Origin: a virus | Virus record (IMG/VR): IMGVR_UViG_3300042465_002205 | Coordinates: 1-37,668 of that record | Length of the DNA: 37,668 nucleotides | Direction: 5' to 3' (one strand) | Shown here: piece after piece, positions 2,145 through 37,124 of the stretch | Position numbering within the stretch: position 1 is the stretch's first letter | Layout: every line of letters begins with the position of its first letter | Notes under the pieces: generated by a model | What the model saw: only the letters and a program-made list of their open reading frames with translations | Databases searched by the model: none | Told to the model about the DNA's origin: nothing | Translations under genes and position numbers: made by a program

Positions 2145-2206
2145 TTGACTTTCTCTGCGAATCTGCTAGGATGTAATAGTAGAGAGAAAAGAGAAAGTGA
2201 TTCGTT
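2145..2206 (+). promoter_or_regulatory. GANTC-type early promoter and leader, copy 1
   Basis: The -35 is TTGACT (2145-2150), the spacer is 16 bp ending CGAATCTGC, and the extended -10 is TGC-TAGGAT (2167-2172). The leader ends GTGATTCGTT directly before ATG 2207. GAATC in the spacer and GATTC in the leader are both GANTC sites. Confidence 0.85.
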
Positions 2207-2533
2207 ATGATTAAAGTTTACCAAATTCAGCTAACCGATGCTGAAATTATCGCTGTCAATAGTGGTGAAACCAGTGACCGCATTCAGGCGTATTTCGACC
2301 GTAGTTTCGAACGCACTTTCAAAGCAGAAAACTTCCAGTATTACACCCATGTGGCTAACGTTGATACCAACGACATGGAAGAAGCGTTTCAACTAATGAA
2401 CCTCTGGGAAGATGAGTCGAAGGTTGAGAAACTCGGTCCTTGTTCATCAATGTCAGTAGGCGATATTCTCGTCCTTGAATGCGGATGGATTTACCGTTGC
2501 GCTTCTTTTGGCTTCGCGCCAATTCCCGCTTGA
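2207..2533 (+). CDS. Hypothetical phage protein with SMSVGDI motif (YodL-like)
   Basis: The 108-residue product ends with an SMSVGDILVLECGWIY stretch followed by an aromatic, glycine-rich tail. This resembles the C-terminal MSVGD motif of YodL-type domains found in mobile-element and phage proteins. The upstream half (YYTHVANVDTNDMEEAF, NLWED) also fits that pattern of a hydrophobic strand, acidic segment and asparagine. No enzymatic residues are evident. Its TGA stop lies inside the TTGACA box of the next promoter. Confidence 0.7.
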   Translation: MIKVYQIQLTDAEIIAVNSGETSDRIQAYFDRSFERTFKAENFQYYTHVANVDTNDMEEAFQLMNLWEDESKVEKLGPCSSMSVGDILVLECGWIYRCASFGFAPIPA

Positions 2534-2590
2534 CATTTCCTCAGAATATGCTATTATAAAGTATAAGCTGAGAAGAGAAAGTGATTCGTT
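2530..2590 (+). promoter_or_regulatory. Early promoter and leader, copy 2 (leader GATTC only)
   Basis: TTGACA (2530-2535), a 16-bp spacer and TGC-TATTAT (2552-2557). The spacer has AGAATATGC, so its GAATC is lost by one base, but the leader keeps GTGATTCGTT before ATG 2591. Confidence 0.8.
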
Positions 2591-2740
2591 ATGAAGTATG
2601 CCTTGATGTTTGCCGGTTTGTTTGCGATGTGTGTTCCTGAAGAAGCTGGTTTTCTTCGTTTCGCTCTACAGGGCGGCTTTGGTTTGATGATGTTCATCGC
2701 TGGTATCGCTCTTATGTTGGAAGAAGAAAAATATGCTTGA
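2591..2740 (+). CDS. Small two-segment membrane protein
   Basis: A 49-residue protein starts directly after the conserved promoter leader. It has hydrophobic runs at about 3-14 and 25-42 separated by PEEAG and ends with acidic EEEKYA. It overlaps the next start (ATGCTTGA). The leader makes translation likely; the function is unknown. Confidence 0.7.
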   Translation: MKYALMFAGLFAMCVPEEAGFLRFALQGGFGLMMFIAGIALMLEEEKYA

Positions 2741-2939
2741 GATTATAAAATGGTTCGGCACCGCGTGTGTCATCGTCGCAGCAACTTGTCGGGCATTTGA
2801 GTTCCATACGGTGGACCTTATCCTGTCGATTATCGGTGCCGCCGCTTGGGGCTATGCTGCTTTCAAGATGAATGATAAACCTTTGATGGTAGTTAATGGT
2901 TTCATTACCGCCATCCTTTTGTATGGAGTTGTGAAATGA
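2733..2939 (+). CDS. Small integral membrane protein
   Basis: The 68-residue product has three hydrophobic segments (about 8-20, 29-43 and 52-67) with short polar links (RAFEFHTVD, KMNDKP). Comparable small membrane proteins are common in marine T4-like phages. It is joined by overlaps to both neighbours. Confidence 0.72.
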   Translation: MLEIIKWFGTACVIVAATCRAFEFHTVDLILSIIGAAAWGYAAFKMNDKPLMVVNGFITAILLYGVVK

Positions 2940-7891: not shown

Positions 7892-8060
7892 AATCCACAA
7901 CGACCAGTGGCAGCATGTGGGCAAGACTTATTTTGTCCATCAAGCCAAACGCAGAGAAAACTCCACTGCGGTGGAGATGACCCTTGAGGACGATGCAGGT
8001 AACATCATTACCATTACGGTAGCCAATCATCAAATCGAATGGATTGAAGATAACACTTGA
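7875..8060 (+). CDS. Hypothetical small beta-rich protein
   Basis: The 61-residue product is strand-rich (GKTYFVHQ, AVEMTLEDD, IITITVANHQIEWI), like a small beta-barrel. The TGA stop lies inside the TTGACA of the next promoter. Confidence 0.62.
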   Translation: MTSNCRIHNDQWQHVGKTYFVHQAKRRENSTAVEMTLEDDAGNIITITVANHQIEWIEDNT

Positions 8061-8110
8061 CATTTGGTCGCGAATCGCTTATAGTGAGTCTATAAGCGAA
8101 AGAGGTTATC
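8057..8110 (+). promoter_or_regulatory. GANTC promoter with 10-bp perfect palindrome over -10
   Basis: TTGACA (8057-8062) and TATAGT (8080-8085), with CGAATC in the spacer. TCGCTTATAG (8075-8084) and CTATAAGCGA (8090-8099) form a perfect 10-bp inverted repeat around TGAGT, covering the -10 and the expected start point. A GAGTC (GANTC) spans the loop and right arm. The usual GATTCG leader is absent. Confidence 0.8.
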
Positions 8111-8627: not shown

Positions 8628-9149
8628 ATGGCAAATAGATTTTTAATCAGTGATACCCATTTCGGGCACACCAATACGTGGGAGAAGTTCACGTTGTCGG
8701 ATGGTAGTCCGTTGCGTCCGTTCACCTCTACAGAAGAGATGGACGAGACGATGGTAGATAACTGGAACAAGACAGTTCGTCCTCAGGATACGGTGTATCA
8801 TCTGGGTGACGTAGTAATCGCCCGACGCCATCTGGAAACAGTGAAGCGTCTGAATGGGCGGAAAATCCTTATCCGTGGAAACCATGACATTTTCAAGGAT
8901 AAGGACTATTATGAGGCAGGATTCGAGCAGATTCATGGCGTTCGCGTGTTTGTGGATCAGTTCATCCTGTCTCATATTCCCTTGCATCCAGACTGTGTAG
9001 GTGAGCGGTTCAAGCGTAACGTTCACGGGCATCTGCATGGTAATCGGATTATGTTGGATGGCGAAGTTGATTCTCGCTATCTGAGCGTATGTGTGGAGCA
9101 GATTAACTTCACTCCCGTTTCTTTTGACCAAGTGCAAAATATGACTTGA
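8628..9149 (+). CDS. Metallophosphoesterase (calcineurin-like)
   Basis: The 173-residue product has the full metal-binding series: DTHFGH near residue 9, HLGDVV, RGNHD, then the SHIPLHP and HGHLHG motifs. It is a small single-domain phosphoesterase of the YfcE-like type common in T4-like phages. Substrates could be cyclic or nucleic-acid phosphodiesters. The ATG at 8628 is preferred to an upstream TTG at 8616 inside the preceding gene. Its TGA stop lies in the next promoter's -35. Confidence 0.88.
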   Translation: MANRFLISDTHFGHTNTWEKFTLSDGSPLRPFTSTEEMDETMVDNWNKTVRPQDTVYHLGDVVIARRHLETVKRLNGRKILIRGNHDIFKDKDYYEAGFEQIHGVRVFVDQFILSHIPLHPDCVGERFKRNVHGHLHGNRIMLDGEVDSRYLSVCVEQINFTPVSFDQVQNMT

Positions 9150-9200
9150 CAAAATGGCACATTCTGCTATTGTGATTAAGACGTTAGAAAGAAAATAAAA
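9146..9200 (+). promoter_or_regulatory. Early promoter without GANTC
   Basis: TTGACA (9146-9151), a 16-bp spacer, TGC-TATTGT (9168-9173). The spacer reads ACATTCTGC, so the family's GAATC is replaced. The leader lacks GATTCG. Confidence 0.78.
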
Positions 9201-10496: not shown

Positions 10497-10558
10497 TTGA
10501 CTTTCTTTGCGAATCTGCTATATTTAATAATGTAGTCAGTGAGAGAAAGTGATTCGAA
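10497..10558 (+). promoter_or_regulatory. GANTC-type early promoter and leader
   Basis: TTGACT (10497-10502), a 16-bp spacer with GCGAATCTGC, -10 TATATT (10519-10524). The leader ends GTGATTCGAA before ATG 10559. Confidence 0.85.
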
Positions 10559-10772: not shown

Positions 10773-10833
10773 TTGACATTTGATTGCGAATCGAGTATAT
10801 TGTAAAAGTAGTCAGTAAGAAAGGTGATTCGTT
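10773..10833 (+). promoter_or_regulatory. GANTC-type early promoter and leader
   Basis: TTGACA (10773-10778), a 17-bp spacer with GCGAATCGAG, -10 TATATT (10796-10801). The leader ends GTGATTCGTT before ATG 10834. Confidence 0.85.
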
Positions 10834-11252: not shown

Positions 11253-12722
11253 ATGATTTCTAGTGAACTTTTTGAAATTGATGCAGCCTGCGTCCGTCGT
11301 GAGGAAATAACGGTTGAGCGCCTGTATTACATGATGACCACCGCGTTGACTAGGCTTCATCCTAATCCAGTTGGTCAACGGGCACCAACTAACGATGGCT
11401 TTAAGAATAGCAAAAACGAAGGTATCATCGAATCGATACTTTGCGGCTATGGTGTGGACACCATCTATCTTCGCGATATCACGGTGTATGAGAGTGACAG
11501 TCCCATTCGCAAGCTGTATAACAACCATGGTTATTTGACAATCGATGGCGGCCACCGGTGCCGCGCCATTCGTTGGTTCATTCAAAACAAGTTTTATATT
11601 ACCATCGATGGTAACAAATTTTTCTTCCGAGATTTGCCACAAGACATCCTTGAGAAGTTCATGCAGGCAACGATAGCCGTAAAGTATATCGTTTGCACTC
11701 GGGCTCAGGCTCACAAGTGGTTCCTGATGATTAACAAGATGACCCCGACCAATGAGATCGAGTCTATCATGGCTGACGACGAGTCGGACGTCACTCGGTT
11801 CATTCGAACCATGACCTGGCACGTTCCTGAATATCGCAATAGCGAACAGATTCATCCGATCTTTCGTGTCTATGATTCCAATAAGAGTGAGCATACCACG
11901 GACATATGGAATAAGGCCAATCTTCGCGGTTCGTTCTACTATCATGCATTCATTACCCTTGCCAAGGCAATTGGTAATGGAAATGTGAATGCTGGTGAGA
12001 CCGCATGGAAGACAATTGTAGCAGATGATTATGCTGGAAAGCCTGTAACTAAGAACGCAATCGAAATCTGGAACAAGTTCTTTGACGACCTGCTAAAGTT
12101 CCAGAAGATTTCTCCTTCCAAGAAGGGTCTGGACGATGATAGCTTCGGCTTCTTCTCTTGCTTCTGGTTCCACTTGCAGAACAAGTATGGCAAGAACTTT
12201 CGTCTGGACATGGACACTCTTGCCCCTCTCCTGGGACGCTCCAAGACGCTCCTGACAGTCAAGAATGGCACCCAGAACAATGACTATGACGATACTATTG
12301 TCAAAGATGTGAATGGTGATAGTGAATATTTGAAGACCCTGATGCGGTCATATGTCAAGGCTTTCTCATATGGAAGTAAGCAAGCCTTTGCTGGCGAGTA
12401 TATCCTGAGAGAGGTCGAACGCCAGGCAGATGATGACACTGGCATCATTATCATGGACACAAAGCGCAGCCTGTCTCTCAAGGATAAGGAAGCACTATTT
12501 GCCGCGCAGATGGGAAAGTGCTGGCTTGATTACAACGGACATCCGTGTAAGAGTGCAGGGAAGAAGTTAACGATTGACGATTGCGTCCTCGCCCACGACA
12601 CTCCTTATTCCAAGGGCGGTAAAGCAGAAGATGGTGTAATTATGTGCGGTGCTTGTCATGATGGAATGGGTGTCCTCGATCTGAAACAATATACTCGTCA
12701 TATAGAAGCAGAAAACGCTTAA
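11253..12722 (+). CDS. DGQHR/DUF262-like N-terminal domain fused to HNH nuclease
   Basis: The 489-residue product has a DGGHRCRAI motif at 98-106, the signature position of the ParB-like DUF262 (DGxQR) and DndB (DGQHR) families, within a region rich in aromatic and acidic residues. The C-terminal part (about 420-475) is an HNH-type module: paired cysteines (KCWLDYNGHPC), DDCVLAHDTPYSKGG with the catalytic His, and MCGACHDG. DUF262-HNH proteins include GmrSD-type enzymes that cut modified DNA. Here it is followed after 7 bases by a DNA methyltransferase, so it may cut DNA that lacks or carries a given modification. Exact specificity is unknown. Confidence 0.78.
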   Translation: MISSELFEIDAACVRREEITVERLYYMMTTALTRLHPNPVGQRAPTNDGFKNSKNEGIIESILCGYGVDTIYLRDITVYESDSPIRKLYNNHGYLTIDGGHRCRAIRWFIQNKFYITIDGNKFFFRDLPQDILEKFMQATIAVKYIVCTRAQAHKWFLMINKMTPTNEIESIMADDESDVTRFIRTMTWHVPEYRNSEQIHPIFRVYDSNKSEHTTDIWNKANLRGSFYYHAFITLAKAIGNGNVNAGETAWKTIVADDYAGKPVTKNAIEIWNKFFDDLLKFQKISPSKKGLDDDSFGFFSCFWFHLQNKYGKNFRLDMDTLAPLLGRSKTLLTVKNGTQNNDYDDTIVKDVNGDSEYLKTLMRSYVKAFSYGSKQAFAGEYILREVERQADDDTGIIIMDTKRSLSLKDKEALFAAQMGKCWLDYNGHPCKSAGKKLTIDDCVLAHDTPYSKGGKAEDGVIMCGACHDGMGVLDLKQYTRHIEAENA

Positions 12723-12729
12723 CCTTCGT

Positions 12730-13764
12730 ATGGCCAAAAAATATCAAATTACCCATCTAGGCAAGACACTTCATACCGACCACTGGGTGGACTTGCCAGA
12801 GGATAAGTGCTTACAATTGAAGGCTGCGTATTACGAAAAGCCTGACTTTGAACTGGTCAAGAAAAATCTAAAAGCAGTATACGATGGTAGCACTATCATA
12901 GGTACCATTACCAATTACTACGTAAAAGACCTTATGGCTAAGGTAAAGCTAGAGTCTCCACGTTGGTCAATCGAAGAGGTATTCGAATCTATGGATTTGA
13001 TTCGATACTTCTGGAGCAGGGTGCTTTCTAGTGACAAGGTATATCCGAAGACCAATTCTGATATAGAGAACTTCGAGTCCGCATTACGGCTTAGTGGCGG
13101 TGGTGTGGCAATGAAGCCGTCTAATTATCCAATTAAGTCGGTTGATGATATCCTATTCAGGTATAATATCAACGGTAAATACTATGACTTCTCTTGTGGT
13201 TGGGGCGTTAGAATGCTGTCATCACTGAGGAACCGAGTGGAATATTATGGTACTGACCCGAATAATCTACTAGTAGAACGGCTCAACCAAATGGCTACTG
13301 ATTATAATGCCGTGAATGGCACATCGGCGAAGTATGACATTCGATGCCATGGTTCTCAAACGTTTGTTCCCGAATGGGAGAACACCATCGGTGTAGCATT
13401 TAGCAGTCCGCCATATTTCAGCCTAGAAGATTATAGAATTGGTGACCAGTCATATAAGCCAGGTACCACATATCAGGAATGGCTAGATACATATCTAAGA
13501 CCTACTCTGGAAAACATCAAAAAATATCTAATTGATGATGGGAAGATGCTAATCAACATCAAGGACTTCCTGAATTATAAGTTGTGCGCAGACACAAGGC
13601 AGATTGCAGAAAGTCTGGGATTTTATTATGTGGAGTCCCTCACGCTAAAGAATATAACCAGACCCAGTGCCAAGGTAGATATCAATACAGACGAGAGTAT
13701 TATGGTATTCTCAAAAAAGCCAGAGAAGCCTGTGCCCGTCACATTGGACCATTTATTTTCTTGA
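12730..13764 (+). CDS. Amino-type DNA methyltransferase
   Basis: The 344-residue product has a SAM-binding motif I (YDFSCGWG, about 152-159), an acidic motif II (YYGTDPNN) and the catalytic motif IV as SPPY (226-229 in SSPPYF), which fits N4-cytosine or N6-adenine methyltransferases with a D/N/S-PPY core. Later IKDFLNY and a C-terminal beta segment follow. It is co-transcribed with the HNH protein, giving a restriction-modification-like pair. It could instead be a stand-alone protective methylase. The TGA stop lies inside the next TTGACA. Confidence 0.85.
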   Translation: MAKKYQITHLGKTLHTDHWVDLPEDKCLQLKAAYYEKPDFELVKKNLKAVYDGSTIIGTITNYYVKDLMAKVKLESPRWSIEEVFESMDLIRYFWSRVLSSDKVYPKTNSDIENFESALRLSGGGVAMKPSNYPIKSVDDILFRYNINGKYYDFSCGWGVRMLSSLRNRVEYYGTDPNNLLVERLNQMATDYNAVNGTSAKYDIRCHGSQTFVPEWENTIGVAFSSPPYFSLEDYRIGDQSYKPGTTYQEWLDTYLRPTLENIKKYLIDDGKMLINIKDFLNYKLCADTRQIAESLGFYYVESLTLKNITRPSAKVDINTDESIMVFSKKPEKPVPVTLDHLFS

Positions 13765-13811
13765 CATTTGCCTGCAAATCGTCTATAAGTGATTATAGAA
13801 AGTGAGAAGTT
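13761..13811 (+). promoter_or_regulatory. Early promoter with TCTATAA/TTATAGA palindrome over -10
   Basis: TTGACA (13761-13766), a 17-bp spacer ending CAAATCGTC, -10 TATAAG (13784-13789). TCTATAA (13782-13788) and TTATAGA (13793-13799) form a perfect 7-bp inverted repeat around GTGA. The GAATC of the family is degenerate here (AAATC). Confidence 0.75.
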
Positions 13812-14090: not shown

Positions 14091-14857
14091 TGTTACAGGG
14101 CAAAAAAGCAACTCTAATTGTGATGGATGATTTTGGTATGGCGTTCTCTAGCGCAGATGTAAGGAAGATTAATACTATCAAGGATATCTTCCGTGCTAAG
14201 ATGGGAGACTTTGATGAAGAACTTCCTATGGCGTATACCCAGTATTTCAAGGACGGCATCATTACCGGCGGTGCTTTTGCCTCTCTGTGGCACCATGAAG
14301 AGCCTAAGGACTGGGACTTCTATTTTACAGATGGTAATATGATGTCCGACTTTCAGGCTAAAGTGATGAACGGTGACCCGGCTGGCCTCTTGTTACAATG
14401 CGTTAAGGACACTGGTCCATACTTCACGCAAGTCCAGGTTGATGGTAAGCTGGTTACCGCTAATGCCGTGACGCTCAAGTGCGGTCTCCAAATGATTACG
14501 ATGGCAACGGCCAATCACCGCAAGTATTTTGATTTCATTCACTGTATGCCATACTATGACTACAACAAGGATGAATTGTATATCAGCCCTCAACAGCTGG
14601 ACGCCATCAAGCGCAAGCAGATTATCAAGAACCCCAACTTTAAGGGCACACCGAAGCCATTCCGTGTGGAGAAATATCTTGACCGCGGCTGGTCTCTATT
14701 GACTACCGATACACAGGGCACGATGAGTCATCATGCACTTAGGGCAGCGCCGGCTGGCGGAATACCGGGAGAAATGCGATTGTCCAATAATGGTACTACC
14801 CTAGAATATTATGATGGCACAGCATGGGTCATGACTGGTAATCAAAAAACCGCTTGA
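14090..14857 (+). CDS. Nucleotidyltransferase-fold protein with structural-protein-like tail
   Basis: The 255-residue product has GGAFASLWHHEEPKDWDFYF at about 64-83, which matches the GG...DxDxxF core of pol-beta-type nucleotidyltransferases. The following region carries strands that alternate with basic patches. The last ~45 residues (GGIPGEMRLSNNGTTLEYYD, then GTAWV) look unlike the catalytic part and instead resemble the GEIRLN..T..LEYYDGT.W repeat of phage fibre and virion proteins. Starts GTG 14090 and ATG 14123 are both possible; GTG overlaps the previous stop. A fused virion-association tail is an inference. Confidence 0.65.
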   Translation: MLQGKKATLIVMDDFGMAFSSADVRKINTIKDIFRAKMGDFDEELPMAYTQYFKDGIITGGAFASLWHHEEPKDWDFYFTDGNMMSDFQAKVMNGDPAGLLLQCVKDTGPYFTQVQVDGKLVTANAVTLKCGLQMITMATANHRKYFDFIHCMPYYDYNKDELYISPQQLDAIKRKQIIKNPNFKGTPKPFRVEKYLDRGWSLLTTDTQGTMSHHALRAAPAGGIPGEMRLSNNGTTLEYYDGTAWVMTGNQKTA

Positions 14858-24131: not shown

Positions 24132-24194
24132 TTGACATTACTGACGAATCTGCTATATTGAGTAAGTAGTCAGTGAGAAGAAAGTGATTCGAAA
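24132..24194 (+). promoter_or_regulatory. GANTC-type early promoter and leader
   Basis: TTGACA (24132-24137), a 16-bp spacer with GACGAATCTGC, -10 TATATT (24154-24159). The leader ends GTGATTCGAAA before ATG 24195. Confidence 0.86.
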
Positions 24195-24296: not shown

Positions 24297-24433
24297 TGTT
24301 TAAAGTCCAGTATCGCTATTATAACTACGCCCTCAAGACCAAGTTCTTTGAAGAGTATGAAGATGCTCGTAAGTTCTGGAACTATATGCGAGTTCAAGCA
24401 GGCATTCGATATACCGAACTAATTACCGCTTGA
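24296..24433 (+). CDS. 45-residue aromatic-rich protein
   Basis: The product starts FKVQYRYYNYALKTKFFEEY and has an EDARKFWNYMRVQAG helix. Its TGA stop lies inside the next TTGACA. The pattern resembles small phage proteins that capture an amphipathic helix; no function known. Confidence 0.65.
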   Translation: MFKVQYRYYNYALKTKFFEEYEDARKFWNYMRVQAGIRYTELITA

Positions 24434-24488
24434 CATTCCCTGCGAATCGTGTATAGTGAAATAGTAGTCAGAAGAAAGAGAACGAATC
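24430..24488 (+). promoter_or_regulatory. GANTC-type promoter, leader GAATC in flipped orientation
   Basis: TTGACA (24430-24435), a 16-bp spacer with GCGAATCGTG, -10 TATAGT (24452-24457). The leader has AACGAATC touching ATG 24489, so the GANTC (24484-24488) is kept although the surrounding leader sequence is reversed relative to the usual GATTCG. Confidence 0.86.
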
Positions 24489-25832: not shown

Positions 25833-26444
25833 ATGGTGAGTGATGTAAAAGAATCTGGTGAATACGAAAACTATCTGGACCAAGATGCACGTATGCAAGA
25901 CGAGTATCGCATGTCCCTGGAACATCTGGTAGGGGTGATTGATACACCTCTTGCGGATAACTCTGGTAAACGTAAGGTCGACCCTGATTTGTGGAAAGCA
26001 ATCTACGTCCACTTCCGCAGCGTTGAGGATATCGTAGACTTCTCGAAACGTATCGGGTATATCGTAGCGAGTAATCTTAAAGACTTCTGGTACCCCTTAG
26101 CCGATCCTCGCGCTTCGCTGTTTGATGACGGCCAAGCGCCTTTGGTGGATGTGGAGGCGCGTTTATGCGCTCCGCGAAAGGATAAGAACTTAGCTTCGCT
26201 TGAAGTGGAAGTGAATGAGACCGAAGAGAGTGCTTGGAAAGAGCATTGGGTGGGGATGCCAGAGTTTGAGTATCTAGAAGATAGTGGTCCCATTCGGTCG
26301 GTGATTGTGAAGTTTCGTCGGCTTGAGGACTATGAAGAGTTCTCGCGGCGTATTGACCAGGTGCTGACCGATAAGTCTAAGGCTATCTGGCACCCTAAGC
26401 TAGAGCGAACACCTAACTATCTTCTGAGGTGGATAGAAGAGTGA
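25833..26444 (+). CDS. Protein with internally duplicated domain
   Basis: The 203-residue product contains two related segments: IYVHFRSVEDIVDFSKRIG...FWYPLADP and VIVKFRRLEDYEEFSRRID...IWHPKLERTP. They share the pattern V.F....D...FS.RI..........W.P. The second unit follows MPEFEYLEDSGPI, which matches widespread phage proteins of unknown function that carry one such unit. The copies differ enough that the duplication is not recent. Confidence 0.68.
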   Translation: MVSDVKESGEYENYLDQDARMQDEYRMSLEHLVGVIDTPLADNSGKRKVDPDLWKAIYVHFRSVEDIVDFSKRIGYIVASNLKDFWYPLADPRASLFDDGQAPLVDVEARLCAPRKDKNLASLEVEVNETEESAWKEHWVGMPEFEYLEDSGPIRSVIVKFRRLEDYEEFSRRIDQVLTDKSKAIWHPKLERTPNYLLRWIEE

Positions 26445-27292
26445 TTGAACGTATCTTCATCCCCACAGTCAATCGGGCCGACAACCAGATTACATACAAT
26501 AATCTTCCTGAAGAGTTGAAGAGTAGAGTAACTATGGTTGTGCAGGCGTGGGAGCGTGACCAATATCATTATCCCTGTGAGTATCTGGTGCTGCCAGAAG
26601 AAATCAATCTGACTGACTACTATTGCTTACCCAAGACTCGTAAGATAATCTACGAGGCTGGCCAGAATATGAAGTATGCGGTCATTGATGATGACCTTAC
26701 ATTCGGTAGACGTAACGCCAAATACTGGACTGGCGTGTCTAATATGGAAATGTCTAAGCGTAAAGCTACAGATGAAGATGTCCTAGAAATGTTTGACCTA
26801 TATAGTAAGTGGTTAGACGATGCGACTGTGACAGTATGTGGTCCCGGTCATGCCGAGAACCCACCACAAGACAGTGCGTATAGTAACAACTCTTCTCTTA
26901 GTAGTGCAATCTTTGTAAATGGTAATGATTTCAAAGACTTACTGCCCGAACTTGAACTAACTCGTGTGAAAGTCGCAGAAGATGTTGTTTTTCTTTTGAG
27001 TTTATTGGCTCATGGTTATGGCAATCGTGTCAGTCAAGAGTTTGTATTCTTCAATAACAGTGTCCACAAAGCAGATATGACATCTACTGTGTGGGATGAA
27101 CAAACATATGAGGATACTCAACGGGATCATAAGATTGTTGAATCGATGTTCCCTGGTATTTTCACAATTTTATATGACGATAAGACTGGTGAGCGTATCA
27201 AAGGTGGATTTCGTGATTTTGGTAAGAGCAAAATACGCTGGAGTGAAGCCCTTGGTTCAGCCCAAAGAGGTAATTTGGAGGATTTATTTTAA
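26441..27292 (+). CDS. Glycosyltransferase-like protein (GT-A fold, phage type)
   Basis: With the GTG start at 26441 the product has 283 residues and begins IERIFIPTVNRADNQIT, a nucleotide-sugar-binding strand pattern. YAVIDDDLTF (DDD, 83-85) fits the GT-A DxD position. The next gene has a similar start (VYIVSKGRADTMIT) and VLDDNISDF, so the two are likely distant paralogs of the glycosyltransferase group found in phages with modified bases. GTG overlaps the previous stop; ATG is not available near. Confidence 0.68.
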   Translation: MIERIFIPTVNRADNQITYNNLPEELKSRVTMVVQAWERDQYHYPCEYLVLPEEINLTDYYCLPKTRKIIYEAGQNMKYAVIDDDLTFGRRNAKYWTGVSNMEMSKRKATDEDVLEMFDLYSKWLDDATVTVCGPGHAENPPQDSAYSNNSSLSSAIFVNGNDFKDLLPELELTRVKVAEDVVFLLSLLAHGYGNRVSQEFVFFNNSVHKADMTSTVWDEQTYEDTQRDHKIVESMFPGIFTILYDDKTGERIKGGFRDFGKSKIRWSEALGSAQRGNLEDLF

Positions 27293-28242
27293 TGACTAAC
27301 CCTAAGTATCCCGTTTACATTGTTTCTAAGGGTCGTGCTGATACTATGATTACTTCGCGGTCACTGACTCGCATGAAGATACCTCATTATATCATCATCG
27401 AACCTCAAGATGAAGCAGACTATGAACAGGCCAAAATCAATTTTGGTCTAACTGACTACGTTACTCTGCTTGTTGCGCCGTTCTCTAATCATGGTGATGG
27501 TCCTGGTCGTGCTAGAAACTGGGCATGGGACCATTCTATCAGTATCGGTGCTACCGCTCACTGGGTTCTAGACGATAACATTTCAGATTTCTATCGTCTC
27601 CATCGCAACGAACGTATTCGTGTGGAGTCTGGTGTGTTCTTCACAGTCATGGAAGACTTCTTTGACCGATATGAGAACCTTTACATCGCTGGTCCGCAGT
27701 ATCGTTTCTTCATTGCACCGAACCAAAAGTATCCGCCGTATGTCGCAAACACTCGTATCTACTCGACATTGCTAATCCGTAATGATTGTAAGCATCGTTG
27801 GCGCGGCCGTTACAATGAAGATACTGATATTTGTCTTCGCGTCCTCAAAGACGGTGACTGCACCGTGCAGTTCAATGCGTTCTTACAGGGTAAAGTTGCT
27901 ACACAGACCATCAAGGGTGGTAACACCGCAGAGTTCTATCACAAAGAATTCTTGGAAGAGGGTGAAGAAGTAGAAGGCAAGCGTTACCACGAGAAGGGTA
28001 CCATCAACAAGTCACAGATGTTGGCTGATATGCACCCAGATGTTGCTCGTGTTGTGTGGCGTTATGGTCGCTGGCATCATTATGTTGACTATACACCGTT
28101 CAAGAAGAACACATTGAAGCTAAAAGACGGTGTTGTTCTTCCCGAAGGCGTCAACAATTACGGTATGAAGCTGATTACTCTGCCAGATGACGTAAAATAT
28201 TCAATGAATATGCAAATTGATGATTTTATGTCAACAATTTAG
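27292..28242 (+). CDS. TET-associated-type glycosyltransferase
   Basis: The 316-residue product has YPVYIVSKGRADTMITSRSL, VAPFSNHGDGPGRARNWAWD and WVLDDNISDFYRLHRN (DDN, 94-96), and later RNDCKHRWRGRYNEDTDICL and HYVDYTPFKK. These blocks match the phage glycosyltransferase family described with TET/JBP base oxygenases, which adds sugars to hydroxylated pyrimidines. No TET/JBP gene is visible in this window. If it is active, phage DNA may be glycosylated, protecting it from restriction. Substrate is inference. Confidence 0.78.
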   Translation: MTNPKYPVYIVSKGRADTMITSRSLTRMKIPHYIIIEPQDEADYEQAKINFGLTDYVTLLVAPFSNHGDGPGRARNWAWDHSISIGATAHWVLDDNISDFYRLHRNERIRVESGVFFTVMEDFFDRYENLYIAGPQYRFFIAPNQKYPPYVANTRIYSTLLIRNDCKHRWRGRYNEDTDICLRVLKDGDCTVQFNAFLQGKVATQTIKGGNTAEFYHKEFLEEGEEVEGKRYHEKGTINKSQMLADMHPDVARVVWRYGRWHHYVDYTPFKKNTLKLKDGVVLPEGVNNYGMKLITLPDDVKYSMNMQIDDFMSTI

Positions 28243-29999: not shown

Positions 30000-30402
30000 T
30001 CCTGCATACGCCGACCCTATTGTTCAACAGTTTAAATCACCTTCCTTTACTGGTTATGGGTGGTCTTCGCATGTGCAATCAATCGATGCGCAGGAGCGTT
30101 CTCGTGAGCAAGCAATCAAAGATGCTGAGGCAGCAAAGGCGGCACTAGCAAGAGCAGAGGCATCAAACACTCCTCTTGCAAAGTTTATGGCGCTGTTTAC
30201 CTCTCAGGTTTACGCACAACTTGCTACACAACTTTCAAACAATCTGTTCGCAGAAGGTGGGAATGCCAGCACAGGAACATTCAATCTTGATGGCAACTCA
30301 GTAAGTTACGTTAAGACGGGAACAGAAGTCACACTAACAGTTGTCGATAAGAATGGTAACACTACGGTTGTTACTGTTCCTATTGCTACGTTTGCGTTCT
30401 AA
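29953..30402 (+). CDS. csgF: CsgF, curli assembly factor
   Basis: The 149-residue product has a Sec signal peptide ending SPAYA before DP (residue 20). The mature N-terminus VQQFKSPSFTGYG matches the CsgF segment that threads into CsgG (TFQFRNPNFGG in E. coli), including the aromatic/Asn-Pro pattern. The C-terminal domain reads FTSQVYAQLATQLSNNLF then TGTFNLDGNSVSYVK, matching the CsgF SQIL..LL..I.TG region. It is slightly longer than E. coli CsgF, with an Ala/Glu-rich insert near residues 40-65. AAGGAAGAG lies before the ATG. Its neighbour is csgG in the same order as a minimal secretion pair. Confidence 0.9.
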   Translation: MLKRAPMLLLLLSLSSPAYADPIVQQFKSPSFTGYGWSSHVQSIDAQERSREQAIKDAEAAKAALARAEASNTPLAKFMALFTSQVYAQLATQLSNNLFAEGGNASTGTFNLDGNSVSYVKTGTEVTLTVVDKNGNTTVVTVPIATFAF

Positions 30403-30412
30403 GGAGATGACC

Positions 30413-31237
30413 ATGAAAAAGTTAATTCTCCTTCCACTTCTTCTCGCAACTTCTGGTTGTGTTGGTGCGCTTCATCCTACCACCAACCAATCATATCTCT
30501 TTAGAGACGATGCCGAAGTCAAGCGTTTTGCTAATCCAAAACTGTTCAAGAATCTACCAGAGTTAGATGGTCAACCAATTCCCATCGCTCTATACTCGTT
30601 CACTGATAGAACTGGTCAACGTAAACCATCTTCGACCCTTGCAAGTTTCTCTACTGCGGTAACTCAGGGTGCAGATGCATATTTGATTAAGACTTTGCAA
30701 GATACGGGTGATGGTAAGTGGTTTGTTCCCGTTGAACGTGTCGGTATTGATTCGCTGATCAAAGAACGTCAACTTGTTCGTCAAATGCGCGAACAGATTT
30801 CAGGAGAGAGCGCAGAACCTCTGCCTCCATTGAAAGTTGCGGGTATCATCATTGAAGGTGGTATCATCGACTACAACTCAAACATCAAGACTGGTGGTAC
30901 TGGTGCTCGCTTCCTCGGCGTCGGTCCATACCAGCAATATACACAAGACCAAGTTACAGTTAGTCTTCGTCTAGTCTCTGTCCAAACAGGCGAAGTTCTC
31001 AATTCGGTTACTGTAGAGAAAACAGTTCTCTCTACTTCTGAGGGGATAACTGCATTCACATTCTTTGACATGGCAACCAAAGCATTTGAATTTGATGGAC
31101 AACAAACAAGTAATGAAGCCGGTAGTTATGCGATCCGTTCTGCCATAGAAACGGCCGTTGTTGAGTTAATCAAGGATGGTGAAAAGAAAAATCTATGGAG
31201 ATTCAAACAAAAGGAAACGACAAATGAAACTAAGTAA
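30413..31237 (+). CDS. csgG: CsgG, curli secretion lipoprotein pore
   Basis: The 274-residue product starts with a lipoprotein signal (TSGC, Cys16) and then follows CsgG closely: ALYSFTDRTGQRKPS...ASFSTAV, DGKWFVPVERVGIDSLIKERQLV, IIIEGGIIDYNSNIKTGGTGARFLGVG, YTQDQVTVSLRLVSVQTGEVL and the C-terminal SAIETAVVELIKDG. E. coli CsgG forms a nine-subunit outer-membrane export channel. The constriction Phe (E. coli Phe56) appears kept at Phe79, whereas the Tyr51 and Asn55 positions look replaced by small residues and the loop is one residue longer. AAGGAG directly follows the csgF stop. Confidence 0.95.
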   Translation: MKKLILLPLLLATSGCVGALHPTTNQSYLFRDDAEVKRFANPKLFKNLPELDGQPIPIALYSFTDRTGQRKPSSTLASFSTAVTQGADAYLIKTLQDTGDGKWFVPVERVGIDSLIKERQLVRQMREQISGESAEPLPPLKVAGIIIEGGIIDYNSNIKTGGTGARFLGVGPYQQYTQDQVTVSLRLVSVQTGEVLNSVTVEKTVLSTSEGITAFTFFDMATKAFEFDGQQTSNEAGSYAIRSAIETAVVELIKDGEKKNLWRFKQKETTNETK

Positions 31238-31997
31238 GTTTTTATTCGTTGGAGCTGCACTTTGTTATGGAACATCTGCGATTGCACAGACTGTATTGCC
31301 GACAGCGCCAACACCACCAGCAATTGTAACAACATCGCCTAATGAAACCGATGCGAATGCTGTTGCAACAACAAACAAGGTGTATATCGATCAAGAGGGG
31401 GGTAACGTAGATGTTAACGTTGTTCAAACTGGGACTGCTAATGTCATCGGTTCTGCTATTGATCCTATTTACCTACGTGGTGATAACCAAAGCGTCATCG
31501 CAATTCAAACAGGCAATGGAAACCAACTTTATATGGGTATCGTATCCGACACCGGAGCCCAAGGAATCGCCGATGTAACAATTCGTCAAATCGGTGACCT
31601 GAATACCGCTGATATCCGTTGCGGAGTATTACAATCAGATTCTTCGTGTAATCAGCTTGACATGAATGCTAAGTTCACTGGTAATAACAATGCTTTTGTT
31701 TTCCGTGGTTCGGGTGCAAATATCCGCAACTCAATGGAGTTCAATGGTAATAATAACACTATCAATATGGATGCGTTGTCACCTAATGCAACACAGACCC
31801 TTCTAGTAACGGGTAACTACAATGATTTTGATGTTACACAAACTGACCTCGGTGGGACATTCGGTCACTCTCTGTATGTAAATCTAACAGGCTCTCTTAA
31901 CACCATAACAACACAACAATATGGTGCCTCAGAAACTGTGATCAACATCAACAGCGTGGGATCTAATGGCACGTTTAATATCAAAACTGGTCACTAA
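31224..31997 (+). CDS. Curlin-repeat fibre subunit (CsgA/CsgB-like)
   Basis: The 257-residue product has a signal peptide (cut after AIAQ region), a Pro/Thr-rich link, and then repeated N-x-(V/I)-x-x-Q-x-G strands: VVQTGTANVIG, IQTGNGNQLYMG, IRQIGDLNTADI, FTGNNNAFVF, FNGNNNTINM, VTGNYNDFDVTQ, LTGSLNTITTQQYG. This is the amyloid-forming curlin pattern, looser than E. coli CsgA and with two cysteines in one unit. It starts inside the csgG end, so it is co-translated with the secretion pore that would export it. Confidence 0.85.
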   Translation: MKLSKFLFVGAALCYGTSAIAQTVLPTAPTPPAIVTTSPNETDANAVATTNKVYIDQEGGNVDVNVVQTGTANVIGSAIDPIYLRGDNQSVIAIQTGNGNQLYMGIVSDTGAQGIADVTIRQIGDLNTADIRCGVLQSDSSCNQLDMNAKFTGNNNAFVFRGSGANIRNSMEFNGNNNTINMDALSPNATQTLLVTGNYNDFDVTQTDLGGTFGHSLYVNLTGSLNTITTQQYGASETVININSVGSNGTFNIKTGH

Positions 31998-33111
31998 TCT
32001 TCTACTGATTTTTCTGTTATCGACTCCTGCCTTTGCTGGTATTGGGTCGATAACAGATTTCAGAGGAGGTGGTGCTATTAAGCGTGGCGCCAAGACTACG
32101 GTAGCGTCTAAGGGCGCTGGTGTAGAAAAGATGGATACAATTTCTACAAACTCGCAAGGTAGATTTAGGATTACATTCAATGACTCGACTACTGTTAATA
32201 TTACAGAAAACTCTCGACTTCTTGTGGATGACTTTGTGTATGATGGGGGAGGGAAGACGAAGGGCAAACTTGGACTTCGGGTCGCGCTCGGCACCGTCAG
32301 ATACACCTCAGGTAAAATCGCCAAAGGCAACGGAAAAGGCGTAAACATTCGCACACCAACTGCTACTATCGCAGTTCGTGGCACGGACTTCGTTATGTCG
32401 GTCGATGAAGCAGGTCGTTCTACGGTCGTGCTGGTTCCCGAATGCTATAACGAATTAGATATTACAAAGCAAACTGCCGATTGTCCCAATGGGGCAATCG
32501 ATGTTATCACTGCGGCGGGTGTGGTTACATTAAATCAACCATTCCAAGCAACGGTTGTAGAAAACTCGTATGCTCCTCCTGCGCCACCAGTTGTCATCAA
32601 TCCTCTTGTTAAGACACTAGACAACAACGTCCAAATCGTTCCTCTAGAAACAGATGATGGTCAAAGTATACTTCAACTTGCTAGAGACAGTTTGAAGAAG
32701 TTTACTAATCCAGCAAGAGCGGCATCGGATGATAACAAAGACCCAGATGCTGGTACAACTGATAACGTCGAACAAGTTTCGGTAGCAATGCTTCGTCCAG
32801 CAACACCACAAGAACTACTGGAAGTTTTTGCTGAATATAATGAAGGCAACACACCTCCAGAAACAATCTACACTAATGTTTCTCCTACGTTCAAGAAAAA
32901 CTTACAGGTCGGCTGGGTGTATACTCGCTTATCTGAGGATAAGCAACAAGCGGTAACTATCTGGTTAGAAAAAGGAACTGAGGCGCAAGTAGTTTCAGTT
33001 CAAAACGGTCTAGTCGATGTTTATAACTTCATGGACGACAAGTGGACATCATCAGGAACTGGTAGACCACAAGGTAATATTACAGTGATACAGGAAACAG
33101 GTGTAAGATGA
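31966..33111 (+). CDS. FecR-domain periplasmic/secreted protein
   Basis: The 381-residue product has a signal peptide ending AFA before GIG (residue 24), then a FecR-type core: GGGAIKRGAKTTV, GVEKMDTISTNSQGRFRITFND, STTVNITENSRLLVDDF, LRVALGTVRYTSGK and VNIRTPTATIAVRGTDF. The C-terminal half is Pro-rich, then helical. FecR domains sense envelope signals in TonB/sigma systems and also pair with CHASE2-cyclases in bacteria. Its start overlaps the curlin gene by 32 bases. Confidence 0.87.
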   Translation: MARLISKLVTNLLLIFLLSTPAFAGIGSITDFRGGGAIKRGAKTTVASKGAGVEKMDTISTNSQGRFRITFNDSTTVNITENSRLLVDDFVYDGGGKTKGKLGLRVALGTVRYTSGKIAKGNGKGVNIRTPTATIAVRGTDFVMSVDEAGRSTVVLVPECYNELDITKQTADCPNGAIDVITAAGVVTLNQPFQATVVENSYAPPAPPVVINPLVKTLDNNVQIVPLETDDGQSILQLARDSLKKFTNPARAASDDNKDPDAGTTDNVEQVSVAMLRPATPQELLEVFAEYNEGNTPPETIYTNVSPTFKKNLQVGWVYTRLSEDKQQAVTIWLEKGTEAQVVSVQNGLVDVYNFMDDKWTSSGTGRPQGNITVIQETGVR

Positions 33112-34562
33112 AAAGACTAATTGCTCTCTTCCTACTATTCTTTGCGATGCCAGTATTTGCACAAGTTACGAACTACGGTTTCGAAAACGGCGACTATGCG
33201 GGCTGGACTGTTAGTAACGGTTCTACTGCACTAAAAACAAACTGGAGTTCTGATGGTTCAGGTGTTCAAGTAACAACTGGTATGACTAACTATTGTCCAG
33301 GTGGCGGTAAGTGCTGGACTATTACACCATATGGCTCATACATGGTATCGCTACAAGCAGGTGGTGGTTCGCCTGGATTTGATGGTGCTATGTCTACCTT
33401 GGGATTACAAAGTTCTACAATTACATCAATTAAGAACACCATTTACTCTAATGGTAACATGTATCCTACAAATGCAACTTCTATCAGTAGAACAGTATTT
33501 CTTCAAGCTGGAGTGACATACACTTATGCTTGGCAGTATGTTTCGACCGACTATGTTCCATATAATGATGGTTCGATGATCACAGTTACGGGTGGTCCAG
33601 GAACTGCCACAATCAATGGACAAACACAAGACTTTGCGCTTCTCGGATTTACCAATCAAGGAACTGGTAACTATTCTGTGGGTTCTTATGGTGCGACTGG
33701 TTGGCAAGTCGCGGTGTTCACTGTACCTACAGATGGCAACTATCTACTAGGGTTTGCCTCATTCAATCTAGGCGATACAGCATTGTCACCAATTCTATTC
33801 ATCGACCAAATGCAAGGAACAACTTCGCTCAACGGAACAACCTTTACACCAGTTGCTCCGAATGCTGGTTCTTCTGCGCCGCCACCTCCTGCTCCTGAAC
33901 CCCCTGCACCCACTTATCCGCTTGCATCAATTAGTGCTAACCAAACACTAAAGATTAATCAAAAAAATTCTATTACTCAAAACTCTATCTACATCAATGC
34001 AACTGGTTCTAACAACTCAGTTTATATTGAACAGTTTTCTAAGCAGAACCAAATTCGTGGTGTCAATGGCGCACAAGCAATGACTATTAACGGTAGCGGT
34101 AACAACATTACTATCAATCAAGGTACAGCGACCACGCCAATCGGCAAGAACCTAGCAGAAGTTTCTGTTACTGGTAACAACAATATAGTATCGTTGACAC
34201 AACAATATAATGGTAAATACGCCGAGATTATAACCAATGGTCTAGGTAATCAAATAACTGTCCAGCAAAAAGATGTTAATGAAAAATCGTTGTTTATCAA
34301 TGCTTTAGGAAATACTAATGTTATCGGTGCGTTACAAGAAGGTACTGGCAATCACTTCTTAGAAATTAATGCCCCATTTGGTGGAGTTACTGCATCTGTT
34401 ATCCAATTAGGTTCTTCTGCAAAGCAATTTCAACTTTTACTAAATAGTCCTGGAATTGGTGTGACGGTTACACAAAATAACTTGACTGTCGCTGACTCTG
34501 CGAAAATGGAAATAACATGCACGACTGGACCATGTAATGGATACTCTTACACAAAGAACTAA
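33108..34562 (+). CDS. Large curlin-repeat protein with beta-sandwich-like N-terminal domain
   Basis: The 484-residue product has a signal peptide (cut near FAQ19), an N-terminal domain opening NYGFENGDYAGWTVSNG, like jelly-roll carbohydrate-binding domains, a Pro-rich linker (about 250-271), and then curlin repeats such as YINATGSNNSVYIEQ, INGSGNNITINQG, VTGNNNIVSLTQ, ITNGLGNQITVQQ and LGNTNVIGALQEGTGN. It may be an adhesive or capping subunit of the same fibre: the repeats join the amyloid and the N-terminal domain faces outward. Four-base overlap with the fecR-type gene. Confidence 0.85.
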   Translation: MKRLIALFLLFFAMPVFAQVTNYGFENGDYAGWTVSNGSTALKTNWSSDGSGVQVTTGMTNYCPGGGKCWTITPYGSYMVSLQAGGGSPGFDGAMSTLGLQSSTITSIKNTIYSNGNMYPTNATSISRTVFLQAGVTYTYAWQYVSTDYVPYNDGSMITVTGGPGTATINGQTQDFALLGFTNQGTGNYSVGSYGATGWQVAVFTVPTDGNYLLGFASFNLGDTALSPILFIDQMQGTTSLNGTTFTPVAPNAGSSAPPPPAPEPPAPTYPLASISANQTLKINQKNSITQNSIYINATGSNNSVYIEQFSKQNQIRGVNGAQAMTINGSGNNITINQGTATTPIGKNLAEVSVTGNNNIVSLTQQYNGKYAEIITNGLGNQITVQQKDVNEKSLFINALGNTNVIGALQEGTGNHFLEINAPFGGVTASVIQLGSSAKQFQLLLNSPGIGVTVTQNNLTVADSAKMEITCTTGPCNGYSYTKN

Positions 34563-36600
34563 AAAAGTTTTACTCTCGCCTTGGTTGGCGCTATTTACTT
34601 TTAGTATTCTTCTTTGGGTAAAACTATCTGACCCATACATGGTAGAATCCACAAGATTGAAGTTTTATGATTATTTGATGCTTGGTTCGCCGACGCAATC
34701 CGAACAAATTGTAACCGTCAATATTGGGGAGAAAGCAATTGAGAAATATGGCCAGTGGCCTTTCCCGCGGGAAGTCCATGCTAAAATTATTGGGGACATT
34801 TATGGCAGAGGGGCTGCTCTTGTTGGTGGCACTATACTTTACCCTGAGCCTGATCGGATGGGGACTGATAGAGTTCTTGCGAATTCCCTAAATCAGTATC
34901 CAGTTGTTCTGAGTCAGACGGTAAGCGACTCTTGTTCACGGGCAAGTGCGACAATTCGGAGGACAGGCGTTGCCGTAATCGGCGATGGAGAAGCAACTGA
35001 ATTTCTTCCTCAATACCCGTGCGTTCTAAGTAATATTGCACCTCTGCAAGAAGCCGCTGCCGGTGTTGGGATAACGTCAACCCTACCCGAGAGTGATGGG
35101 GTTGTAAGGCGAGTTCCTCTTCTATCTCAAACATCAGGCGAATACTATCCCGCATTTGCTCTAGAGATGCTGCGTGTAGCTGCAGGAGACTCTTCGTATC
35201 AAGCCAAGATAAATCAGACTGGGGTCGAAGCATTACGAATTCCTTCTTTTGAAACTATTAAAACAGATGAATATGGTAGAGTGTTCGTCAATCCGAACTA
35301 CCGATTCCAGTCAGTCGAAATTGGAGCGGATCCTTTACCTGACCTGAATGGTAAAATTGTGATTGTTGGTGTAACTGCTGCTGGTATTGCGAACCCTGTA
35401 GCGACTCCATCAGGTGCGCAACATCCCCACGTCCTTCAGGCGAGTATTCTTGAAACTCTGATAAATGGAGATTCTGTTTCGATTCCGAACTGGTCAGCAA
35501 TTGCGGATCTAGCGGCGTTTCTGGGTCTTGCTCTGGCATTGATAATTCTTTCTCGTTTTCGTTTCTCTATAATTTATATCGGCATATTACTAGCTGGATA
35601 TTTTTATCTACCAACATATCTGTTCGTAAATAAAGGTATTCTGTTTGATGTAACATTCAACATCATTGCCATTGCACTAATTTACATTCACATCTATACA
35701 GTAAAGTTTATTAGTGAATTCCTTCAGAAGCAACAGATTAAGAAACAGTTTGGCACATATCTGTCACCTGCGATGGTTGAGAAGTTACAGAAGAATCCAG
35801 AACTACTTGCTCTAGGTGGTGAGTCCAGGGAGTTGTCGATAATGTTTACCGACGTTCGTGGGTTTACTACTATATCAGAACACTATGGTGAGGACGTTCA
35901 AGGCTTAACTAAGATTATGAACAGATATATGACAGCGATGACCGCTCGTATTATCGAAAATGAAGGCACACTTGACAAGTATATTGGTGACGCACAGATG
36001 GCTTTCTGGAATGCACCGTTAGATGATAAAGACCATGCGTTGAATGCTGTCCGCACAGGACTCGCAATGCTACAAGATTTGGAGACTTTCAATGAAGAAG
36101 TTAAAGCAGAAGGCATTCCAGCTTTCGGTATGGGCCTTGGTATTAACACTGCCACTGTGGTTGTTGGTAATATGGGCAGCGACCAGCGTTTTGATTACAC
36201 TTGCTTGGGTGATGGGGTTAATCTGGCTGCTCGTCTCGAAGGTCAAACCAAACCTTATGGGGTCAAACTCATCGTCGGACCACAAACGGCCGAATTGGTT
36301 AGGGATGTATACCAAGTAGTCGAACTAGATTTGATTGCTGTCAAAGGTAAAACCGAGCCAGCTAAAATTTTTACTGTCTTAGAAACCTTCGACCACGCGG
36401 GTGAGAAACAACATGAGAAGTTTCTAACACTATATCGTCAAGGTAACTGGGAAGCTGCCCAAAAATTTGCCAGCGACTTAAAGAAGTGCTGGCAAGGTAA
36501 TTTATCAGATTATTACGACTCGATGATTAGCCGTATTGAAGAGTTTCGGGTGTCACCTCCGAAAGATTGGGACGGGGTGTATCGGGCGACTTCGAAGTAA
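34537..36600 (+). CDS. CHASE2-domain class III adenylate cyclase
   Basis: The 687-residue product has an N-terminal membrane segment (about 15-30), a CHASE2 periplasmic domain (about 35-318), three membrane segments (about 322-338, 344-362 and 370-388) and a class III cyclase domain (about 430-615). The catalytic set looks complete: metal ligands Asp439 (FTDVRGFT) and Asp485 (GDAQMAF), adenine-selecting Lys481 and Thr555, and transition-state Asn562 and Arg566 (VNLAARLE). It would make cAMP in response to a periplasmic signal, plausibly from the FecR protein. It overlaps the curlin gene by 26 bases, so belongs to the same operon. Confidence 0.93.
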   Translation: MDTLTQRTKKVLLSPWLALFTFSILLWVKLSDPYMVESTRLKFYDYLMLGSPTQSEQIVTVNIGEKAIEKYGQWPFPREVHAKIIGDIYGRGAALVGGTILYPEPDRMGTDRVLANSLNQYPVVLSQTVSDSCSRASATIRRTGVAVIGDGEATEFLPQYPCVLSNIAPLQEAAAGVGITSTLPESDGVVRRVPLLSQTSGEYYPAFALEMLRVAAGDSSYQAKINQTGVEALRIPSFETIKTDEYGRVFVNPNYRFQSVEIGADPLPDLNGKIVIVGVTAAGIANPVATPSGAQHPHVLQASILETLINGDSVSIPNWSAIADLAAFLGLALALIILSRFRFSIIYIGILLAGYFYLPTYLFVNKGILFDVTFNIIAIALIYIHIYTVKFISEFLQKQQIKKQFGTYLSPAMVEKLQKNPELLALGGESRELSIMFTDVRGFTTISEHYGEDVQGLTKIMNRYMTAMTARIIENEGTLDKYIGDAQMAFWNAPLDDKDHALNAVRTGLAMLQDLETFNEEVKAEGIPAFGMGLGINTATVVVGNMGSDQRFDYTCLGDGVNLAARLEGQTKPYGVKLIVGPQTAELVRDVYQVVELDLIAVKGKTEPAKIFTVLETFDHAGEKQHEKFLTLYRQGNWEAAQKFASDLKKCWQGNLSDYYDSMISRIEEFRVSPPKDWDGVYRATSK

Positions 36601-36664
36601 CTTCTTGTTCGAATAGTTCCTTCTCCATCTGAAAGAAGTGTTCTTCTAGTTCTTCGTCGTTCAT
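36527..36664 (-). CDS. 45-residue acidic protein, antisense to cyclase end
   Basis: The start is fused to the preceding minus-strand gene as TAATG, with AGGAAAGAG upstream, giving an acidic product starting NDEELEEHFFQMEKELFEQE. Its last 74 bases run antisense to the end of the cyclase gene. The junction type equals that between the two genes before it, which supports a real third gene. Confidence 0.55.
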   Translation of the reverse strand: MNDEELEEHFFQMEKELFEQEVTSKSPDTPRPNLSEVTPETLQYG

Positions 36665-36879
36665 TAGAAACTCTTTCCTAGATTAAGTTGACAAAACTTT
36701 CGGAACATATCTTCGAAGTTGCCGGTCTTATAAACCCAGGCATCATAGAGACCCTGTAAAGAGTAACTATCGGAAGCAGACTTACTTACATAGTAGCCTC
36801 TTTCTTCAAGTTCTGCTACGAGTTCTTCATCGTCAAAGTCATCCATATAAACTTCGACTTCTGTAGTAATACTAACCAT
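36664..36879 (-). CDS. Hypothetical acidic protein
   Basis: The 71-residue product has VEVYMDDFDDEELVAELEERGYYV, a pattern of short phage proteins, and an aromatic C-terminal half. The start is fused to the previous stop as TAATG. Not recognised. Confidence 0.7.
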   Translation of the reverse strand: MVSITTEVEVYMDDFDDEELVAELEERGYYVSKSASDSYSLQGLYDAWVYKTGNFEDMFRKFCQLNLGKSF

Positions 36880-37070
36880 TATGCTACCTTCCTTTTATAT
36901 GCCACACGGCCCTCCAGATACTCTTCAAAAGACGAATAGGTTGGGATACCATTCGCTCCGAGTTCAAAATTAATTTCTAAGAACGACTCAAGTTCATACT
37001 GCCAGCCGTTCCATGCAACACCTAACTCTTTGAGTAGGTTCTCTTCATTTCTAGATATTTCAAGAATCAT
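36879..37070 (-). CDS. Hypothetical protein, first gene of leftward operon
   Basis: The 63-residue product is helical and acidic (NEENLLKELGVAWNGWQYELESFLEI). ATG 37070 is preferred to 37082 because GAGG lies 6 bases upstream. Not recognised. Confidence 0.68.
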   Translation of the reverse strand: MILEISRNEENLLKELGVAWNGWQYELESFLEINFELGANGIPTYSSFEEYLEGRVAYKRKVA

Positions 37071-37124
37071 CACACACCTCATTGCTTACATTATAGTTAT
37101 AGACGATTCGCAGCCAAAAGTCAA
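37071..37124 (-). promoter_or_regulatory. GANTC-type early promoter for leftward operon
   Basis: On the minus strand TTGACT (37124-37119), a 17-bp spacer with GCGAATCGTC and TATAAC (37101-37096). It is the only leftward member of the family seen. Confidence 0.83.

Follow-up and report, generated by a model that had tools for sequence, protein, structure and literature searches.

GcrA is a methylation-dependent sigma70 cofactor of Alphaproteobacteria. In Caulobacter it prefers TGATTCG or YGAKTCK, while Brevundimonas GcrA is without such a preference (PMC7987155). GANTC, the site of the methyltransferase CcrM, marks a distinct class of timed cell-cycle promoters in Caulobacter when it lies between -10 and -35 (PMC4287350), and genomes bearing CcrM have GANTC under-represented overall and over-represented intergenically (PMC3973325). 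In alphaproteobacterial phages, GcrA sites showed no positional bias when they were scanned for in earlier published work (PMC9437464). Here we describe a promoter family with GAATC at a fixed place in the -35/-10 spacer, in a 37.7-kb fragment of an uncultured freshwater phage (IMG/VR record IMGVR_UViG_3300042465_002205; the window, meaning the whole analysed stretch of 37,668 nucleotides). The element is apparently unreported in the literature searched. We tentatively read the sites as early promoters for sigma70 into which a GATTCG element of the GcrA type is built, a reading that we place a little below an even chance.

The original prediction held that about 20 promoters share one layout and that at least 12 carry GAATC in the spacer or at the -35 edge. 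Direct reading confirms all 12 coordinates, with GAATC inside the spacer in 11 and at the -35 edge in one (Table 1). In these 11, TTGAC(A/T) starts at the first position given in the table (37124 for the leftward promoter) and each spacer of 16–17 bp contains CGAATC. In the promoter at 24040, the 3' end of the -35 element and GAATC overlap (TTGACGAATC). A family size of about 20 holds if decayed members are counted (2530, 9146, 11196, 13761, 17384, 23722, 37138). With the -10 hexamer as alignment frame, GAATC is constantly found three bases 5' of this hexamer, at -20 to -16, and CGAATC at -21 to -16. The offset is the same in the 16-bp class, CGAATC-TGC-TATTGT with an extended -10, and in the 17-bp class, CGAATC-GCT-TATAGT. 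To our knowledge, no standard sigma70 element has been described at -20 to -16. By their -35/-10 match, spacers of 16–18 bp, TGn and small early-type genes downstream, the sites are predicted to be early-type promoters for host sigma70 RNA polymerase.

For comparison, five relatives with 90–96% ligase identity and L080 led to six longer contigs (G001–G006, 46–172 kb), and the clade set used for promoter counts, orthologue pairs and GANTC avoidance comprises seven contigs. Strict promoters were defined blind to the spacer sequence (TTGAC[AT], 15–18 bp, TA[TA][ATG]NT and a downstream ATG). GANTC occupies -20 to -16 in 9/15 strict promoters of the window and exactly this offset in 31 of 98 unique clade promoters, where each of 23 control pentamers of the same composition type occurs at most once. 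Among 187 promoters of distant relatives none has GANTC there; their conserved spacer is a different one, TTGACAATAAATCC...TATAAT. The central base in the 31 clade spacers is A in 29 and T in two, never G or C. The test for enrichment at promoters that had been proposed thus comes out positive. The genome-wide count of GANTC gives depletion and not excess (observed/expected 108/141 for the window, 519/654 for G005, the relative of 171 kb), and enrichment is restricted to promoter regions, with a density ratio of GATTCG/CGAATC between intergenic and coding DNA of 7.5–29. A loose position-specific scoring matrix for promoter calls slid into background (95 control matches) and was excluded from the statistics. 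Intergenic enrichment of GACTC/GAGTC in relatives was discarded, as it stems mostly from tRNA T-loops (GGTTCGAGTCC).

Orthologous promoters were matched through the protein encoded downstream, giving 51 pairs. For a family to be retained, at least one member had to match GA.TC, a condition that fixes G, A, T and C and leaves N free. At -19 to -16 (AATC) none of the 51 pairs differs. The G at -20 differs in 8% and the C at -21 in 14% of the pairs, positions -15 to -13 differ in about 30% and positions -22 to -26 in 43–63%; for most spacer positions other than CGAATC the range is 29–63%. In some families one relative belongs to the 16-bp class and another to the 17-bp class with GAATC unchanged. 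We conclude that the spacer AATC, judged by this pattern, is under purifying selection, which answers the objection, raised with the original prediction, that one recently duplicated cassette carried GAATC along. Flanks are indeed alike within the window (CCGC before -35, AGTCAGTGAGAGAAAGTGATTCG after -10), as such copying would leave them. Orthologous promoters nevertheless diverge at the neighbouring positions and not at AATC, they switch spacer class with GAATC retained, and groups with unrelated flanks (G205, G207) also have the element. Duplication is therefore a very improbable explanation, and the orthologue comparison rules it out as the sole cause.

Most window copies have a second site. 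TGATTCG, on the opposite strand to the spacer CGAATC, stands immediately 5' of the start codon, 38–41 bp 3' of the spacer copy, and is found at the same distance in 27 of 108 clade promoters. In a few clade promoters the reverse copy, CGAATC, adjoins the ATG. Part of the forward copy (GTGAT) may double as a Shine-Dalgarno sequence. A site in double-stranded DNA is indicated by the reversed copies and by the copies at 23761 and 24045, all of which read CGAATCA (TGATTCG on the other strand).

Other groups of T4-like phages have the element as well. When 2.9 million viral contigs were scanned with TTGACWT-(6-7)-CGAATC-NNN-TATNNT, spacer CGAATC was found in at least 119 viral stretches, many with 2–7 copies, compared with 26 stretches for a permuted hexamer and 58 for the reversed hexamer in the same register, both with one match each. 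Among the matches listed, most belong to two linked T4-like groups (69 and 20 loci). G207, whose nearest neighbour among eight references is Sinorhizobium phage phiM12, has 4–5 such promoters. A scan for other central bases (CGABTC) gave at least 43 unique CGATTC, at least 10 CGACTC and at least 10 CGAGTC. CGATTC replaces CGAATC in homologous cassettes (L302, L318, L334, L339), which suggests that a double-stranded site can flip strand from GAATC to GATTC.

Other promoter types were also seen. The distant relatives L008, L011, L015, L017, L038 and L074 have an early-promoter cassette of their own, TTGACAATAAATCC(N)TTTGG..TATAAT with a conserved 5' untranslated region (UTR), ATCGGTATAGT...AACGGAG, and G005 has a separate late motif, TATAAATA, in 22 copies on its + strand. 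The group C arrays (L139, L193) were classed apart, as another promoter family in which GANTC occurs only occasionally. They pack 27 TTGAC(A/T)...TATAAT promoters into about 11 kb, a remarkably dense arrangement that in L193 keeps almost entirely to one strand, and the group is unlinked to the window.

Among 24 equivalent pentamers, coding DNA of all seven clade contigs avoids GANTC most strongly (0.62–0.77). Six non-alphaproteobacterial control phages range from 0.82 to 1.09, all above the clade values, so that avoidance is a suggestive marker of an alphaproteobacterial host. For the outer-membrane beta-barrel protein at the start of the window, the cellular relatives found are solely alphaproteobacterial (Hyphomicrobiales and Sphingomonadales). 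Taken together, coding GANTC avoidance and these relatives make a CcrM-bearing alphaproteobacterial host plausible. The affinity of G207 to a Sinorhizobium phage is in keeping with this. Elsewhere, coding GANTC is almost completely purged in HTVC008M (L486–L493; observed/expected 0.18) and RDJL Phi1 (L547–L549; 0.01). PhiM9 (L478–L485) avoids GAATC/GATTC (0.42–0.54) and not GACTC/GAGTC (0.90–0.95), a bias confined to A/T at N, just as the studied promoters show it.

The link to host GcrA/CcrM is drawn because the element coincides both with this avoidance and with the known GcrA motif. Spacer copies contain GATTCG, the core of the methylated motif preferred by GcrA, and the start-codon copies are identical, in either orientation, to the extended motif that PMC7987155 reports for activation by GcrA. 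The T4-superfamily early-type promoters (TTGACA, 16–17 bp, often TGn) would be served by sigma70 RNA polymerase of an alphaproteobacterial host. Their conserved GATTCG at -21 to -16 (top strand CGAATC), often with a second copy at the start codon, would most likely be read by host GcrA bound to CcrM-methylated GANTC. GcrA docked beside the -10 hexamer would favour phage over host promoters and could couple promoter strength, and possibly its timing, to how far the phage DNA is methylated. The original prediction had taken the spacer GANTC for CcrM sites, through which early phage transcription could follow the methylation of incoming or replicated DNA. Part of this stands: the sites are non-random, fixed in position, under purifying selection and more than recent duplicates, and the Caulobacter class with GANTC between -35 and -10 sets a precedent (PMC4287350). 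As a conserved unit, GANTC gives way to GAATC/GATTC, mostly CGAATC.

Several observations weigh against reading the element as a GcrA-type site. N at -18, which is irrelevant to CcrM, shows no change among the orthologue pairs, and a few surviving promoters have lost the G at -20 that methylation requires. Selection for CcrM sites only would let N drift and keep G; the opposite is found, so methylation as such cannot be the sole selected property. Spacer GACTC/GAGTC is at background among the matches listed, although YGAKTCK would permit GAGTC, and the Y of this motif is matched by 13 of the 31 spacer copies. Cultured T4-like phages of alphaproteobacterial CcrM hosts (Cr30, phiM12, phiM9 and RHph_I1_18, the last picked by its 68% ribonucleotide reductase match) have 0–1 such promoters, the layout being absent from RHph_I1_18 too, which further counts against a plain CcrM site. 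In 385 alphaproteobacterial genomes, 37 matches are about equal to the reversed-pattern control, i.e. there is no enrichment. The coding-GANTC signature overlaps between host groups, with eleven control phages of alphaproteobacterial hosts spanning 0.01–0.94, and Melnitz, the closest phage by shared proteins, infects a betaproteobacterium. The GcrA gene is absent from all ten phage records searched.

These points lead to an explanation that we consider almost as likely, namely an element blind to methylation, in which either the host sigma70 holoenzyme or a regulator of phage or host origin contacts GAATC at -20 to -16 and the overlap with GANTC is coincidental. An N as fixed as the core and never other than A/T, next to a less fixed methylatable G, is what it would predict, and it agrees with the constant 3-bp distance to -10 in both spacer classes. 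Some family promoters lack GAATC in the spacer (such as those at 2530, 9146, 17384 and 23722), distant relatives carry the other conserved spacer, and T4 early promoters have consensus blocks beyond -35/TGn/-10 (PMC2988021). This explanation needs a chance coincidence with the most avoided coding pentamer of the same genomes. It also leaves the 7-mer that recurs at the start codon and elsewhere in both orientations to be explained, which sigma contact would not do, and no candidate regulator was found. Regularly spaced and inverted relative to each other, the two copies would also suit an operator, with CGAATC in the spacer and GATTCG at the start codon, 38–41 bp apart, as half-sites at which a phage repressor or looping protein silences early genes. 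We regard this as unlikely: the second copy is present in only 23 of 42 spacer-GANTC promoters, 13 promoters have the downstream copy alone, and no conserved repressor gene was identified. Least likely of all, the phage's own methyltransferase (12730–13764) would mark the sites. Encoded in the region of the promoters, the enzyme is a member of the N6_N4_Mtase family, with a motif order that we take to be unlike that of CcrM. G005, at 171 kb, is without it and yet retains 14 such promoters, which makes the enzyme dispensable for them. No PF01555 methyltransferase was found in G003, G005 and G006, and a search for a D12-type adenine methyltransferase found none. We thus keep the GcrA-type element as the favoured reading. 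The wider proposition, that uncultured T4-like phages widely built a methylated-GATTCG/GcrA site into early promoter spacers, had transcription boosted or timed by CcrM and purged GANTC elsewhere, is put forward with more reserve than either of the two leading readings.

Table 1. Promoters of the family and two genes of the window (positions in nucleotides; hexamers and spacer length as -35, bp, -10).
Feature	Position	Strand	Remarks
OMP_b-brl outer-membrane beta-barrel protein	51–596	+	porin-like; host hint
Promoter TTGACT-16-TAGGAT	2145–2172	+	GAATC 2159–2163; TGATTCG before ATG (GATTC at 2199); conserved in 5 relatives
Family promoter without spacer GANTC (GAATA)	2530–2557	+	5' UTR TGATTCG kept (GATTC at 2583)
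Promoter TTGACA-17-TATAGT, 17-bp class	8057–8085	+	GAATC 8072–8076; relatives alternate between 16- and 17-bp class, GAATC retained
Family promoter without GANTC	9146–9173	+	ACATTCTGC TATTGT
Promoter TTGACT-16-TATATT	10497–10524	+	GAATC 10511–10515; 5' UTR GATTC at 10551
Promoter TTGACA-17-TATATT	10773–10801	+	GAATC 10788–10792; 5' UTR GATTC at 10826
DNA methyltransferase, N6_N4_Mtase family	12730–13764	+	SPPY motif IV, downstream of motif I
Family promoter, GAATC changed to AAATC in window	13761–13789	+	GAATC retained in G004, G005
Promoter TTGACA-16-TATTGT	14854–14881	+	GAATC 14868–14872
Promoter TTGACT-16-TATTGT	17077–17104	+	GAATC 17091–17095; extra CGAATC at 17069; 5' UTR GATTC at 17131
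Family promoter without spacer GANTC (AAATCC)	17384–17411	+	5' UTR GATTC at 17438
Promoter TTGACA-16-TATTGT	20568–20595	+	GAATC 20582–20586; 5' UTR GATTC at 20622
Promoter TTGACA-16-TATTGT	21794–21821	+	GAATC 21808–21812; 5' UTR GATTC at 21845
Promoter TTGACA-17-TATATT without spacer GANTC	23722–23750	+	CGAATCA (= TGATTCG) shortly 3', at 23761
Promoter TTGACG-17-TATAAA	24040–24068	+	GAATC 24045–24049 over -35 edge (CGAATCA = TGATTCG)
Promoter TTGACA-16-TATATT	24132–24159	+	GAATC 24146–24150; 5' UTR GATTC at 24186
Promoter TTGACA-16-TATAGT	24430–24457	+	GAATC 24444–24448; reversed copy CGAATC abutting ATG (GAATC at 24484)
Leftward promoter TTGACT-17-TATAAC	37096–37124	-	GAATC on - strand (GATTC at + 37105)

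The window phage is assigned by its sequence to the T4 superfamily. Many of its proteins are common to Methylophilales phage Melnitz, Pelagibacter phage HTVC008M, Cr30 and phiM12, and it has a CHASE2/adenylate cyclase protein, as do Melnitz and HTVC008M. The terminase of a relative is 49% identical to those of cyanophages. The guanine-cytosine content of near loci is 0.44–0.47, against mostly 0.33–0.43 in 73 more distant relatives. A search for the nearest cultured phage by DNA similarity found none, and BLAST of the 30-bp promoter against cultured phages returned chance matches only. At 11253–13764 of the window a 489-residue protein with a DGGHR-like motif is followed by the methyltransferase gene. 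In G005, which lacks the latter, the next promoter follows directly, as if the unit had been gained or lost. The window and five relatives, G001–G005, are poor in GATC (observed/expected about 0.3–0.5), with 0.89 in G006 and 0.05 in Melnitz, a depletion suggestive of a further restriction or methylation pressure. At 26429–28242 two TET-associated glycosyltransferases (PF20691) are encoded side by side, related to the hydroxymethylcytosine glucosyltransferases of T4/T6; cytosines of the phage DNA may be glycosylated, with a possible effect on GANTC methylation. The region 30341–36600 holds a curli-like secretion cassette with CsgG, two proteins with curlin-like asparagine/glutamine repeats, a FecR-domain protein and the CHASE2-type adenylate cyclase.

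If methylation is read, a lytic phage would have its genome-wide early promoter set governed by an epigenetic mark tied to the host cell cycle, going beyond the known cases of single phage promoters under Dam control, and the family would offer ready-made reporters for GcrA-sigma70 use of GATTCG at a fixed promoter position. If it is not read, the spacer element is still strongly selected in several uncultured phage groups and usable as a marker of host or lineage.

Among the known systems, we are aware of no GAATC-type block in T4 early promoters, and phage promoters controlled by Dam/OxyR include Mu mom. The P22 gtr promoter, under the same control, resembles the studied family in that adenine methylation in a phage promoter decides transcription (PMC2909390). 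Dam/OxyR promoters differ in being single promoters that use GATC with repression or phase variation; they form no genome-wide early family. CtrA-controlled promoters of alphaproteobacterial phages likewise let a phage read the host cell-cycle circuit through promoter sites, but with another regulator, another motif and no methylation (PMC9437464). T4 early promoters share the many near-identical strong sigma70/TGn promoters, an extra consensus and small early-type genes downstream (PMC2988021), while the studied phage has its GAATC block at -20 to -16 and the start-codon copy. In the promoter itself there is a likeness to the GcrA/CcrM sigma70 promoters of Alphaproteobacteria, which, as far as Haakonsen 2015 is represented in PMC7987155 and together with PMC4287350, have GANTC between -35 and -10, the core GATTCG and TGATTCG nearby. 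Those are described in these sources for host genes only, whereas the phage sites are known from sequence, with N fixed to A/T and a rigid position.

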